Source: Pseudomonas flexibilis (lineage in GTDB: Bacteria; Pseudomonadota; Gammaproteobacteria; Pseudomonadales; Pseudomonadaceae). From it: a DNA stretch of 64,000 nucleotides. Shown here in pieces: positions 1-59,445 of the stretch. Location: assembly GCF_000802425.1 (NCBI RefSeq), contig NZ_JRUD01000002.1, positions 62,001-126,000 of the forward strand. Direction: 5' to 3'. The notes below the pieces were generated by a model. That model was given only the letters and a program-made list of their open reading frames with translations, was not told where the DNA came from and did not search any database. Each line of letters begins with the position of its first letter. The first letter of the stretch is position 1. Both the position numbers and the translations under genes were made by a program.

Positions 1-2380
1 TGGCGGACACGGTGCTGCCCGGCTGCAGCGCCGGCGCCGGCAGGCTGACCGCGCTGATCGCCGCCAGCGCCTCGATGCTGCCCAGTTGCGCCTGCTCCAG
101 GGCCTGGGCTTGCTGGAAGCTGATGGGGTGGAAGCGCAGCCGGTCGCCGGGCTTGACCTGGCCCACCTTCCACAGCTCGGCCTTGGCGATGGTCACCGGG
201 CAGACGAAACCGCCGAGGCTCGGGCCGTCCTTGGTGAGGATCACCGGGAAGTCGCCGGTGAAGTTGATCGAGCCGATGGCGTATTCGCAGTCGTGTACGT
301 TGGACGGGTGCAGGCCGGCCTCGCCGCCGTCGGCGCGGGTCCAGCTCGGCTTTGGCCCGGACAGGCGCACGCCAAGGCGGTTGGAGTTGTAGTGCACTTC
401 CCATTCGGCGGCGAAGAACTCCTCGATGGCCTCGGGAGTAAAGAAGTCCGGCGCGCCATGCGGGCCGTAGAGCACGCCGATGTCCCAGGTGCTGCCGTAG
501 CTGGGGATCAGGCTGGCATGCGCGGCCTGCGGCGGCGCCACCGGGGCTGGCGTGGTGCAGGCTGGTAACGCCGGTTGGGAAATAGCCAGCATGTCGGCCG
601 GGCGCAGGGTACGGCCGGCGTGGCCGCCGAACTGGCCGAGGGCAAAGGTGGAGCGGCTGCCCAGGTACAGGGGCACGTCCAGGCCGTTGCGCACCGCCAG
701 GTAGGTGCGGCAGCCGCTGGCGGCGCGACCCAGCTTCAGCACCTGGCCGGCGCGCACCGGCAGCGGTTCCCAGTAGGCCACCGGCTCACCGTCCAGGATG
801 GCCGGGCAGTCGGCGCCGGTCAGGGCGATCGTCGCGTCGCAGTGGAATTTCAGGGTCGGGCCCTGCAGGGTGAACTCCAGGCCGGCGGCGCTGGCGTGGT
901 TGCCGACGATGCGGTTGGCCAGGCGGAAGGCATAGTCGTCCATCGGTCCGGACGGCGGCACGCCTATGTCCCAGTAGCCGAGGCGGCCAGGGAAATCCTG
1001 CACGCTGGAGTAAGTGCCCGGTTCCAGCACTTCGATGACGCTGGCGGTGTATTGGAAGCTGTCCAGCAGGCGGGTCCAGACCCGGCCCTCGGCGAAGCGC
1101 TCGTCGGCCACCACCTGGCGCAGGTAGTCCAGGTTGCTGGCGATGCCGTGCAGGCGGGTCTCGGCCAGGGCGGCCCCCAGCTTCTGCAGTGCTTCCTCGC
1201 GGCTGGTGCCGTGCACGATCAGCTTGGCGATCATCGGGTCGTAGAAGGCCGACACCTCGCTGCCGGTGCTGACCCAGCCATCCACTCGCACGCCTGCCGG
1301 AAAGTGCACATCGGTGAGCGCGCCCGGGCTGGGCTGGAAATTCTTCAGCGGGTCTTCGGCATACAGGCGCACCTCCATGGCCGCGCCCCGCGGAGCCTGG
1401 CCCAGCGCGTCCCAGTCCAGCGCGTCGCCGGCGGCCACGCGCAGCATGCATTCGATCAGGTCCAGGCCGGTGACCCTCTCGGTGACCGGGTGCTCCACCT
1501 GCAGGCGGGTGTTCACCTCCAGGAAATAGACGTCGTCGCGGGCGGCGTCGTAGATGAACTCCACGGTGCCGGCGCTGCGGTAGTTCACCGAGCTACCCAG
1601 TTGCACCGCGGCGGCATGCAGGCGTTCGCGGGTGGCCTGCGGCAGATTCGGCGCCGGGGTTTCCTCCACCACCTTCTGGTTGCGGCGCTGCAGGGAGCAG
1701 TCGCGCTCGCCGAGGGCGACCACGCGGCCCAGGCCGTCGCCGAAAATCTGCACCTCCACATGGCGCGCCTGATCGACGAAGCGCTCGAGGAACACACCCG
1801 CGTCGCTGAAGAACTGCTCGCCCATGCGTTTGACGCTTTCATAGGCGCTGGCCAGCGCCTCGGCATCGGCGCAGCGGGTCAGGCCGATACCGCCCCCTCC
1901 GGCGGTGGTCTTTAGCATCACCGGATAGCCGATCCGCTCGGCGGCGGCCAGGGCGTCTTCCAGGCTGCTCAGCAGACCGGTGCCCGGCGCCATCGGCACC
2001 CCGGCCTCGGCGGCCAGTTCGCGGGCGCGGTGCTTGAGGCCGAATTCCCGGATCTGCGCGGGCGTTGGGCCGACGAAGGCGATGCCGGCGGCCGAGCAGG
2101 CCTCGGCGAAGTCGGCGCTTTCCGAGAGGAAGCCGTAGCCGGGGTAGATGGCCTGGGCGCCGGTCTCGGCGGCCGCGGCGAGGATCTTGTCGACGCGCAG
2201 GTAGCTGTCGGCCGGCTTGTCGCCACCCAGGGCGATGGCCAGGTCGGCATCCCGCACGTGCTGGGCGTTGCGGTCGGCGTCGGAGTACACCGCCACGCTC
2301 TTCACGCCCAGGCGCTTGAGGGTGCGGATGGCGCGGACGGCGATCTCGCCACGATTGGCGATGAGGACGGTATCAAACAT
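1..2380 (-). CDS. uca: Urea carboxylase, N-terminal two thirds (3' end beyond window)
   Basis: Biotin-dependent ATP:urea carboxylase; it makes allophanate, which the neighbouring hydrolase then breaks down. About 793 codons are visible without a stop, out of roughly 1200 usual for the family. Residues 1-445 form a biotin carboxylase module: an N-terminal ANRGEIA motif, the PGYGFLSE motif, the glycine-rich GGGGIGL ATP-grasp loop near residue 160, and the MEVRLYAED motif. From about residue 450 (PGTYSSVQDFPGR) the KipA-like (AHS2) carboxyltransferase domain begins. The KipI-like and biotinyl domains lie outside the window. The ATG at 2380 has a good GGAGG site six bases upstream. The N-terminal half resembles AccC (14961-16313), but the KipA domain excludes acetyl-CoA or pyruvate carboxylase. 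Confidence 0.95.
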   Translation of the reverse strand, partial: MFDTVLIANRGEIAVRAIRTLKRLGVKSVAVYSDADRNAQHVRDADLAIALGGDKPADSYLRVDKILAAAAETGAQAIYPGYGFLSESADFAEACSAAGIAFVGPTPAQIREFGLKHRARELAAEAGVPMAPGTGLLSSLEDALAAAERIGYPVMLKTTAGGGGIGLTRCADAEALASAYESVKRMGEQFFSDAGVFLERFVDQARHVEVQIFGDGLGRVVALGERDCSLQRRNQKVVEETPAPNLPQATRERLHAAAVQLGSSVNYRSAGTVEFIYDAARDDVYFLEVNTRLQVEHPVTERVTGLDLIECMLRVAAGDALDWDALGQAPRGAAMEVRLYAEDPLKNFQPSPGALTDVHFPAGVRVDGWVSTGSEVSAFYDPMIAKLIVHGTSREEALQKLGAALAETRLHGIASNLDYLRQVVADERFAEGRVWTRLLDSFQYTASVIEVLEPGTYSSVQDFPGRLGYWDIGVPPSGPMDDYAFRLANRIVGNHASAAGLEFTLQGPTLKFHCDATIALTGADCPAILDGEPVAYWEPLPVRAGQVLKLGRAASGCRTYLAVRNGLDVPLYLGSRSTFALGQFGGHAGRTLRPADMLAISQPALPACTTPAPVAPPQAAHASLIPSYGSTWDIGVLYGPHGAPDFFTPEAIEEFFAAEWEVHYNSNRLGVRLSGPKPSWTRADGGEAGLHPSNVHDCEYAIGSINFTGDFPVILTKDGPSLGGFVCPVTIAKAELWKVGQVKPGDRLRFHPISFQQAQALEQAQLGSIEALAAISAVSLPAPALQPGSTVSA

Positions 2381-2498
2381 GGGTGGCCTCCGTGGCGAGA
2401 TCGCCGTGGTGGGCTACGCCCACCCGGCACTTTGACTTCGTCGCTGCGCCGCTTCGCGGATGGTCACCACGGTTGGTGATGAGGACGGTCTGAAACAT
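2373..2498 (-). CDS. Leader ORF of 41 codons starting with a copy of the uca N-terminus
   Basis: A short ORF fills the gap between allophanate hydrolase and urea carboxylase. It has an AAGGAG ribosome site at 2505-2510, seven bases before its ATG. Its first 12 codons (MFQTVLITNRGD) are a diverged copy of the first codons of uca ([12 protein letters not shown]). After that it reads into unrelated sequence with a GTGGGC/GCCCAC palindrome, and its TGA lies inside the third codon of uca. This arrangement would allow translational coupling atzF-leader-uca. It may equally be the relic of a 5' duplication with no function. No known family is recognised. Confidence 0.4.
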   Translation of the reverse strand: MFQTVLITNRGDHPRSGAATKSKCRVGVAHHGDLATEATHV

Positions 2499-57037: not shown

Positions 57038-57430
57038 TCAGTAGTGCGACTGGATCACCGCGATGCCCTTGCCCAGCGCCTCGCGCCAGGTCTGCAGGGT
57101 CTGCGCGGTGCACTCGCGGTCATGCTCGCGGATGGTCTGCAGCAGCGCCGTCAGCCACAGCTCGTAAAGTTCGGGACGGATATCCAGGCCGCTGCGCGCA
57201 TGCGAGGCGCCGAGGGCGCGCAGCTTGGTATCCGGCAGCCCGCGGCTGTACATCACCAGATTGAGGATGCCCTGGCGCAGCAGCTGCTTCTGGCCAGTCA
57301 TGTCGGTGTTGACGAACTTGGCGCGCACTTCGGCGGAGCTGGCCAGGAAGCTGCGGTAGAAATCATCGAAAAAGGTGGGGCTGGCACAGCAGCGGCCATA
57401 GCTGTGCATCAGGCTGTCGGCGGGACTCAT
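57038..57430 (-). CDS. Single-domain globin
   Basis: 130 residues from the ATG at 57430 (MSPADSLMHSYGRC). Globin fold signs: FFDDFYRSFLASSAEVRAKF (helices A-B with a family-typical phenylalanine), then QLLRQGILNLVMYSRG, and the proximal haem histidine His77 in LGASHARSG. The tail LYELWLTALLQTIREHD matches helix G/H. No sensor output domain is attached, and the length is too short for flavohaemoglobin. The role (oxygen, nitric oxide or redox sensing) cannot be told from sequence. Confidence 0.82.
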   Translation of the reverse strand: MSPADSLMHSYGRCCASPTFFDDFYRSFLASSAEVRAKFVNTDMTGQKQLLRQGILNLVMYSRGLPDTKLRALGASHARSGLDIRPELYELWLTALLQTIREHDRECTAQTLQTWREALGKGIAVIQSHY

Positions 57431-57730
57431 CGATCTGTCCTTGTTCCATGCGGGTAGGAGGCAGCCGCGCCGACGCGCGAACGACGCAGCCTGCCCGCAG
57501 CGCGGGGGCATTCATCGGACGCGATCGGAGTCGCAGGCTTCGGTGCCTGAATTCCTGTGGCACACCACGGAAGGATCGATGGGCGTTTGGGGATCCGGTC
57601 TGGGCCGGACTTGCCGCGCGCGGCCACGCAAGGCGGATATCAAGCGGGCGAGATTATACGCAGGCGCCCCCTTGGCAGCCTGGCGAGGAGCACGCGGCGG
57701 CGTGCGCCGCGTCACGTTTGCCGGTTCGAC
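57431..57730 (-). promoter_or_regulatory. Long leader and promoter region of the globin gene
   Basis: A 300-bp stretch without a convincing gene. On the minus strand a perfect TATAAT lies at 57653-57658, which would give the globin mRNA a leader of about 215 bases; the -35 is weak. Within the leader are GC-rich palindromes (GCCGCGCGCGGC; CCGG...CCGG). A TTGATATCC half-site resembling an ANR/FNR half-box lies just after the -10. Short ORFs here look like chance. Confidence 0.45.
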
Positions 57731-58210
57731 TCAGCCGCGCAGATGGTTGAGCGGCAGCTCGGTGCTGGCGATCACCTGGTTGAGCACGAAGCTCGAGCGC
57801 ACGCTGCTGACCCCCTCGATGCGCGTCAGGTTGCCGAGCAGGAAGGCCTGGTAGTGGTCCATGTCCTCGACTACCACCTTGAGCAGGATGTCCGCCTCCA
57901 TGCCGGTGATCACGCAGCATTCCACCACTTCCGGGTGCTGGCGGATCTTTTCCTGGAAATGCTCGAAGCGCTCCGGGGTGTGGCGGTCCATGCCGATCAG
58001 CACGTAGGCGGTCAGCGTCAGGCCGAGCTTCTTGCGATCCAGCAGCGCCACCTGGCGCACGATGTAGCCCTCGTCCTCCAGTTGCTTGACCCGCCGCGAG
58101 CAGGGCGAAGGCGACAGGCCGATGCGCTCGGCCAGCTCCTGGTTGGAGATGCGCGCGTTGCGCTGCAGTTCGGCGAGGATGTTCAGGTCGTAACGGTCCA
58201 GCGTGCTCAT
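57731..58210 (-). CDS. Lrp/AsnC-family transcriptional regulator
   Basis: 159 residues from the ATG at 58210 (MSTLDRYDLNILAELQRNAR). N-terminal winged helix-turn-helix with ELAERIGLSPSPCSRRVKQLEDEGYI (about 24-50), then the RAM ligand-binding domain (VVECCVITGMEADILLKVVVEDMDHYQAFL, about 88-118). Members sense amino acids or related effectors. The expected divergent target is missing: no protein gene faces it on the plus strand, only sites and a terminator (58264-58522). Confidence 0.95.
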   Translation of the reverse strand: MSTLDRYDLNILAELQRNARISNQELAERIGLSPSPCSRRVKQLEDEGYIVRQVALLDRKKLGLTLTAYVLIGMDRHTPERFEHFQEKIRQHPEVVECCVITGMEADILLKVVVEDMDHYQAFLLGNLTRIEGVSSVRSSFVLNQVIASTELPLNHLRG

Positions 58211-58263
58211 CGCGGCGCTCTCTTTGTGGAAAGATTGCCGAGAATAGTGCTCCTGCGTTCTTT

Positions 58264-58303
58264 GATTGCGCAAGCGGCGGCTTGTCGCGCAATCTTCGCA
58301 ATC
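58264..58303. promoter_or_regulatory. Cluster of GCGCAATC-type sites, likely Lrp-type operator
   Basis: Three related sites, GATTGCGCAA (58264-58273), GCGCAATC (58287-58294) and CGCAATC (58297-58303), lie 54-93 bp upstream of the regulator gene. The first two face each other. Such spaced inverted sites fit Lrp-type octamer binding and autoregulation; the assignment is inference. Confidence 0.5.
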
Positions 58304-58319
58304 TCTGATCGCGCCTGCT

Positions 58320-58522
58320 GGCGTACACTGGCTCCAACTTCGAAGGCCCGGAACCTCCAGCGGTCGCCTCCAACCAGGGGCACCGTCGCCGGCGACTCAC
58401 CACGTCGCACGGCACCCGGGTCCGCCCGCCCAACCAGGCTGGCGACAGGCAACGGCGATACCCTCGCCGGGAGCGGAGCGATGAAGAATTGACTGGGGAA
58501 GCCGACCGGCTTCCCCTTTTTT
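58320..58522 (+). ncRNA. Candidate small RNA divergent from the Lrp-type gene
   Basis: The plus strand between the operator cluster and 58522 ends in a strong intrinsic terminator although no protein gene precedes it. A possible -10 (TACACT, 58323-58328) follows the sites, so the transcript would be about 190 bases, GC-rich and well structured (TCGCCGGCGA; GCGATACCCTCGCC). Just before the terminator a three-codon ORF (ATG AAG AAT TGA, 58481-58492) has GGGAG seven bases upstream. It could be a small RNA or an attenuated leader that lost its gene. I cannot match it to a known RNA family. Confidence 0.4.
58495..58522 (+). terminator. Orphan Rho-independent terminator
   Basis: Nine-base-pair stem GGGGAAGCC / GGCTTCCCC with a GACC loop and six T. 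On the minus strand there is no U-tract after the hairpin, so it does not serve the cation-transporter gene that ends at 58552. Confidence 0.88.
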
Positions 58523-58551
58523 ATGTCCCGAAAAAATTGGCGGGGACGCTT

Positions 58552-59445
58552 CTACAGGGCGATGCCTTCCGGGGTGTGGCACGGATCGGCATGCACCAGC
58601 ACATCGCTCTGCGGAAACTCGGCGCGAATAGCCGCGCTCACCGCCTCGCAGCGCGCATGGGCCTCTTCCAGCGTCAGCTCGGCGGGCAGCTCCACGTGCA
58701 TCTGCACGAACCACAGGGTGCCGGAGCGGCGGGTGCGCAGGTCGTGGGCGCCCAGCACATCCGGCACCCCGCAGGCCAGCGCATGCATGCGCTCGGTGTG
58801 CTGCGGCGCCAGTTCCTCGTCCATCAGCACAGCGGCGGCCTCGCGCACGATGCCCAGCGCGCTCCACAGGATGATGCCGGCAATGCCGATGCCGAAGGCC
58901 GCGTCCAGCCAGAGCAGGCCGGCACCGGCCAGCAACAGCGCGACCAGGATGCTGGCGTTGAGCAGCAGGTCGGAGCGGTAGTGCAGGGAGTCGGCATGGA
59001 TCGCCGTGGAGCCGGTGGTGCGCACCACATGGCGCTGGAACAGCAGCAGCACGGCGGTGAGCACGATCGACAAGACCATCACCGCGATACCGGCATCGGT
59101 GTCGCCCAGCGGTTGCGGGTCGAGCAGGCGTTGCACGCCATGGATCGCCACCAGGACTGCGCTGACGCCGATGAACAGCGCCTGGCCGAGTCCGGCCAGG
59201 GCCTCCGCCTTGCCATGGCCGTAGCGGTGGTCGTCGTCGGCCGGGCGCAGCGAGTAATGCACGGCAATCAGGTTGAGCAGCGAGGCGGCGCCGTCCAGCA
59301 GGGAATCGGTGAGCCCCGCCAGCAGGCTCACCGAACCGCTCAGCCACCAGGCCACCGCCTTGACCAGGGCCAGGGTGAGGGCCGTGGCCAGTGCGGCGCC
59401 GGTGGCCAGGCGCAGCAGACGGGCGTGCTGTTCGGGGACCTTCAT
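58552..59445 (-). CDS. Cation diffusion facilitator (FieF/YiiP type)
   Basis: Proton-coupled efflux of divalent metals (Zn, Fe, Cd, Mn class) at the inner membrane. 297 residues with six membrane segments to about residue 205 and a cytoplasmic metal-binding domain after that. The transport site is complete: Asp47 and Asp51 (TDSLLD) with His155 and Asp159 (HYRSD), the pattern of E. coli FieF. DDDHRYGHGKAEALAG near 71 is the family loop. 24 bp separate it from the lipoprotein gene upstream. Confidence 0.94.
   Translation of the reverse strand: MKVPEQHARLLRLATGAALATALTLALVKAVAWWLSGSVSLLAGLTDSLLDGAASLLNLIAVHYSLRPADDDHRYGHGKAEALAGLGQALFIGVSAVLVAIHGVQRLLDPQPLGDTDAGIAVMVLSIVLTAVLLLFQRHVVRTTGSTAIHADSLHYRSDLLLNASILVALLLAGAGLLWLDAAFGIGIAGIILWSALGIVREAAAVLMDEELAPQHTERMHALACGVPDVLGAHDLRTRRSGTLWFVQMHVELPAELTLEEAHARCEAVSAAIRAEFPQSDVLVHADPCHTPEGIAL

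Follow-up and report, generated by a model that had tools for sequence, protein, structure and literature searches.

The question raised by this locus is what is transcribed from the gap beside its Lrp-type regulator gene, which the preliminary description read either as half of a regulator-small RNA pair or as a leader that has lost its gene. The gap lies in a 64 kb stretch of Pseudomonas flexibilis DNA, which was analysed as a whole and is called the window below. It carries a divergent copy of P24, a small RNA that is already known as an Rfam entry (Rfam ID RF00629). What is new is that the promoter geometry and the hairpin loops of P24 match those found before leuA in other families, which suggests that the small RNA came from the leader of a leucine gene. 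The explanation that we favour, with moderate confidence, is that P24 is an Lrp-controlled, trans-acting small RNA, related to the leuA leader and probably descended from it, whose loops may bind a factor. The features of the locus are listed in Table 1.

Table 1. Features of the P24 locus, in window positions
Feature	Position	Strand	Basis or detail
lrp gene, Lrp/AsnC-type regulator	57731..58210	-	Pfam HTH_24 and AsnC_trans_reg
Lrp-type sites	58232..58303	.	Invariant columns in ten genomes and in a 41-genome alignment
P24 promoter (GCAATC site, 20 nt, -10 TACACT)	58298..58329	+	GCAATC-N20-TAnnnT geometry
P24 small RNA (RF00629), predicted, about 187 nt	58336..58522	+	Rfam, model R1, covariation
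Closing stem P1 of the multibranch domain	58345..58422	+	58345-58349 pairs with 58418-58422
Hairpin H1, loop CAACCA	58360..58386	+	Covarying helix
Hairpin H2	58388..58413	+	Covarying helices
Hairpin H3, loop CAACCA	58423..58444	+	Covarying helix
Hairpin H4, loop UACCC	58454..58468	+	Covarying helix
Three-codon ORF ATG AAG AAT TGA	58481..58492	+	Non-conserved, probably chance
Intrinsic terminator of P24	58495..58522	+	GGGGAAGCCGACCGGCTTCCCC-TTTTTT

The regulator and its neighbourhood

The gene to the left of the gap encodes the Lrp-type regulator that had been described there, with a helix-turn-helix and an AsnC_trans_reg domain; the NCBIfam Lrp match of its product lies under that model's cut-off. 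Amino acids are the typical effectors of the Lrp/AsnC family. Orthologues with 70-86% identity are found in 38 Pseudomonadaceae genomes. The window gene is likely the counterpart of PA3965, since P24 has been placed at PA3964-PA3965 in P. aeruginosa (PMC6954232); PA3965 is one of the nine Lrp/AsnC regulators of strain PAO1 (PMC8707732). Downstream of lrp, at 57038-57511 (-), lies a gene for a globin-like protein, which stays near lrp in some relatives.

The gene to the right encodes a FieF-like cation efflux pump and converges with the P24 transcript, the two meeting at 58495-58552. A DNA search of relatives shows that this right-hand neighbour varies while the lrp side is kept. A readthrough variant, PA3963a, is listed for P. 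aeruginosa as extending into PA3964 (PMC12802237), which together with the convergent arrangement makes antisense transcription against P24 possible.

The predicted transcript is a divergent P24

The region 58266-58516 matches RF00629 with 50.3 bits (E value of 1.5e-12 for the 451 bases searched and of 2.9e-12 genome-wide), half of the gathering cut-off of 100 bits. The window copy is classed as a P24 orthologue below that cut-off, at which a search of the whole window with Rfam gives no match. The alignment spans model positions 1-255, being full-length and including the helices, and Rfam searches by E value identified P24 in all ten loci tested. The custom model R1, whose training set includes the window, matches 58336-58487 with 86.8 bits. 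Profile and synteny together place the window copy in the P24 family. A second RF00629 match in the genome (28.4 bits) was not recovered by R1 and is attributed to chance.

The first 70 or so positions of the Rfam model cover the Lrp-type sites and the promoter, and we therefore predict the 5' end, from the -10, near 58336 and not at 58266. RF00629 seemingly takes in about 70 nt of promoter DNA (window 58266-58335), with a first helix that is the DNA palindrome TTGCGCAA, and its seed may need re-cutting. At the 3' end, the terminator works on the plus strand alone, in line with the preliminary description.

In P. aeruginosa, P24 is upregulated in biofilm (log2FC of 3.6; 77 clinical isolates) (PMC6954232), and a 202-nt small RNA from the same gap changes in level with shear (PMC4981712). 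Our literature search returned expression tables alone for P24, with no functional study and no paper on its regulator or origin.

Open reading frames do exist in the gap, which might code for a small protein or a leader peptide, either as the 72-residue plus-strand frame at 58266-58484 or as the tripeptide MKN. The first has no Pfam match, in agreement with the earlier view that the gap holds no convincing gene, and relatives differ by one- or two-base gaps. The mini-ORF ATGAAGAATTGA is present as described, but it occurs in just 1 of 41 homologous transcripts, that of the window genome, and the idea of a peptide is not supported. As the substitutions also fit RNA pairing, we regard a coding origin as very improbable.

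Fold and covariation

In an alignment of 25 transcripts, P24 folds into a closing stem enclosing one small and two large hairpins, followed on the 3' side by two further hairpins and the terminator. Across the 40 pairs of this alignment, compensatory change is seen in 71 cells, compared with 24 in shuffled and 15-20 in slid controls. Among 48 distinct sequences the count is 233 against 63, in an alignment that was made to the model and leans towards it. In the closing stem (helix 1), 91.7% of the cells are paired and two pairs have changed on both sides. The search for covariation in relatives, which had been proposed for this locus, thus strongly supports the fold.

Distribution and linkage to lrp

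P24 is present in 352 of 398 Pseudomonadaceae genomes and is absent from all 14 control genomes. The region 58264-58477 is kept beside the lrp orthologue in several genera, as seen in the DNA search of relatives. With permissive filters, P24 was found in 33 of 39 chosen genomes, and all 33 matches adjoin the best lrp match, are divergent from it and lie about 50-70 bp from its start. Among the six genomes left without a match, G005, G021, and G018 do carry P24 there, divergent from lrp; R1 recovered all three, and Rfam recovered G005 as well. Other genes abut lrp in G003 and G013; two genomes of the family keep lrp without P24. R1 has no match in G007 (locus L107) or at loci L111 and L113. The reading as a regulator-small RNA pair is supported by these results, the RNA being a known family with strong covariation that sits beside the same lrp orthologue.

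At one locus (L009), the divergent P24 is adjoined by matches to the TwoAYGGAY family at 1965-2029 (-) and 2363-2429 (+) of that locus, one scoring just over the gathering score and one under it.

A promoter with Lrp-type sites

The three sites and the possible -10 of the preliminary description are present. Within the conserved block, ATTGC is kept near the lrp side, TTGCGCAA lies at 58266-58273, and CGCAATC starts at 58288 and 58297 (+). With a further copy at 58264 (-), three CGCAATC fall inside 40 bp; the whole window has 6 copies, 3 of them in this cluster, against 13.7 expected by chance. The arrangement GCAATC-N20-TACACT is the sole such match in the window, where 0.11 would be expected. 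A search for the double CACAAGGC motif elsewhere in 293 genomes yielded no second regulon, most matches belonging to one recurrent, coding-looking sequence.

This promoter, with its -10 located 20 nt past a GCAATC Lrp-type site, would drive P24 divergently from lrp, and the Lrp/AsnC protein encoded next to it most likely controls both genes.

leuA faces lrp in other families

Outside the Pseudomonadaceae, the lrp orthologue is divergent from leuA in 82 of 93 sampled genomes of the order, at a distance of 134-555 bp. Named examples are Marinobacter, Alcanivorax, and Marinobacterium litorale, together with beta-proteobacterial genomes. In the Pseudomonadaceae, leuA is located away from lrp, and in the window genome it lies on another contig.

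The geometry GCAATC-N20-TAnnnT is found at 35 of 42 P24 loci and 45 of 58 leuA loci, and again in the named genomes. Other spacings between the two elements occur 0-3 times in the P24 set and 0-10 times in the leuA set. The exception is a spacing of 29 at the P24 loci, which reflects the preceding direct repeat. The identical 20-nt spacing before P24 and leuA points to one ancestral promoter with exchanged cargo; in most of the order's other families, as in the named beta- and gammaproteobacteria, this promoter drives leuA. The suggestion of a leader that has lost its gene also finds support, in that other families have this promoter and these hairpin loops before leuA. Terminator-like structures are found at 39 of 41 P24 loci versus 2 of 52 leuA leaders.

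In family f2, a free-standing RNA with a terminator at its end occupies this place, which has no leuA; the comparison with P24 covered part of that RNA. At three f2 loci (L113, L133, and L134, in genomes G036, G442, and G477) it faces lrp, its closing stem resembles CCUGUGAC/GUCACAGG, and it has a hairpin of the CUUCACAAGAG type. At four further loci (L135-L138), lrp is not flanked by leuA, and no P24-like RNA is evident. In Aeromonas (L249, L257, L260, and L261), no leuA faces lrp within the flank examined, and the gap contains hairpins such as GGGT(CAAGA)GCCC.

Before the leuA of the Pseudomonadaceae, a conserved candidate leader peptide rich in leucine, with the sequence MKTAHTLILLRQHACLRLVSPRLRG or one close to it, can be read by eye in three of five genomes (L194, L196, and L197), and none is evident in the window genome (L193) or in G016 (L195).

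The departure of leuA from the locus would also suit a relic, in which P24 is the decaying transcript of a leuA leader without function. Two genomes of the family have dropped P24, and those of families f30 and f11, judged by eye, lack both leuA and any evident hairpin RNA here. Decay is hard to reconcile with family-wide compensatory changes, with the terminators kept at nearly all P24 loci, with the presence of P24 in most of the family and with its regulated expression in P. aeruginosa (PMC6954232), and we consider a relic improbable.

Common hairpin loops in P24 and leuA leaders

The 51 long leuA leaders contain 55 hairpins with CANNA or UANNC pentaloops, versus 2.3 expected from dinucleotide shuffles (maximum of 7 in 200 shuffles). 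They occur in 36 of the 51 leaders and in 18 of 23 families, a per-family count that partly corrects for relatedness, which the shuffles ignore. Four control loop patterns reach 1-6 hairpins, near background. In the seven short leaders, with a combined length of just 337 nt, no such hairpins are found. The P24 transcripts contain 41 YANNM pentaloops against 2.2 expected; the window copy has the UACCC loop of H4, which is also present in leuA leaders, along with two CAACCA hexaloops. Since the motif was defined after the sequences had been seen, the named leuA set, which overlaps the first in part, is the fairer test, and here too the hairpins are present in most long leaders and absent from most short ones.

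Profile searches do not connect the two groups. An Rfam scan of 19 leuA leaders and one f2 locus matched no family, and R1 has no match in 186 genomes outside the Pseudomonadaceae, nor in leuA leaders or loci L113, L115, and L118, for which the distance may be too great. The relation between P24 and the leuA leader therefore depends on where the two lie, on the spacing within the promoter, and on the loop motif; their loops may have converged on a shared binder.

P24 might instead be an ordinary base-pairing small RNA acting in trans, Hfq-dependent or not, behind an ancient Lrp-controlled promoter, with loops that are convergent or serve general stability. A stand-alone, terminator-ended, structured transcript and the lack of a profile-level match to leuA leaders agree with this. 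Against it, CANNA/UANNC loops are strongly over-represented in both sets and similar control classes are not, and in leuA leaders the opening letter of the loop is tied to the closing one, C to A and U to C (Fisher p of 4e-8, ignoring relatedness). We rate this alternative as unlikely, though clearly ahead of a relic or a coding gene. Pairing of P24 with the leuA mRNA of its own genome is no better than with shuffled sequences in five genomes.

Returning to the favoured origin from a leader, the likeliest history is that the leuA leader module was kept as a free-standing RNA once leuA had moved away, and its likeliest action in trans would be that the hairpin-loop array binds or titrates a putative loop-reading factor. 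In its fullest form, which we put forward tentatively and at somewhat less than even chances, many gammaproteobacterial leuA transcripts would start with a CANNA/UANNC hairpin leader that is read by this factor; the Pseudomonadaceae would have lost leuA from the locus and turned the leader into P24, under the same Lrp promoter and acting in trans on the factor. We know of no protein that reads loops of this type.

Meaning and comparison with known systems

For P24, these results supply a likely regulator, correct the 5' end, back the fold with covariation, and offer a plausible source in evolution. The leuA leader element with its repeated loop motif looks undescribed and could serve to fish for the loop-reading factor. 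If the proposed descent is true, a small RNA born from a metabolic leader by gene loss gives a regulatory RNA a traceable origin.

The window copy shares with RF00629 the place beside the same lrp gene, the fold, the terminator, and the strand, and differs in its divergence (50.3 bits against the cut-off of 100) and in a shortened first hairpin. The leuA leader has in common with P24 the divergent lrp promoter, the identical spacing, and hairpins with CACAA, CACGA, and UACCC loops, whereas it runs on into leuA, mostly without a terminator, and gives no significant covariance-model match.

The protein-titrating small RNAs of the RsmY/RsmZ-CsrB type carry the same loop motif, ANGGA, on several hairpins, and RsmA/CsrA reads this motif. 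P24 likewise repeats one loop motif over several hairpins, but an RsmA/CsrA-binding RNA was rejected, its loops being CANNA/UANNC, with GGA mostly missing from those listed. ANTAR targets, which are hexaloops with A1 and G4, were also rejected, as the P24 loops do not fit. EutX and Rli55 are small RNAs with riboswitch or ANTAR leader elements, and what they have in common with P24 is a leader-type element that serves as a free RNA.
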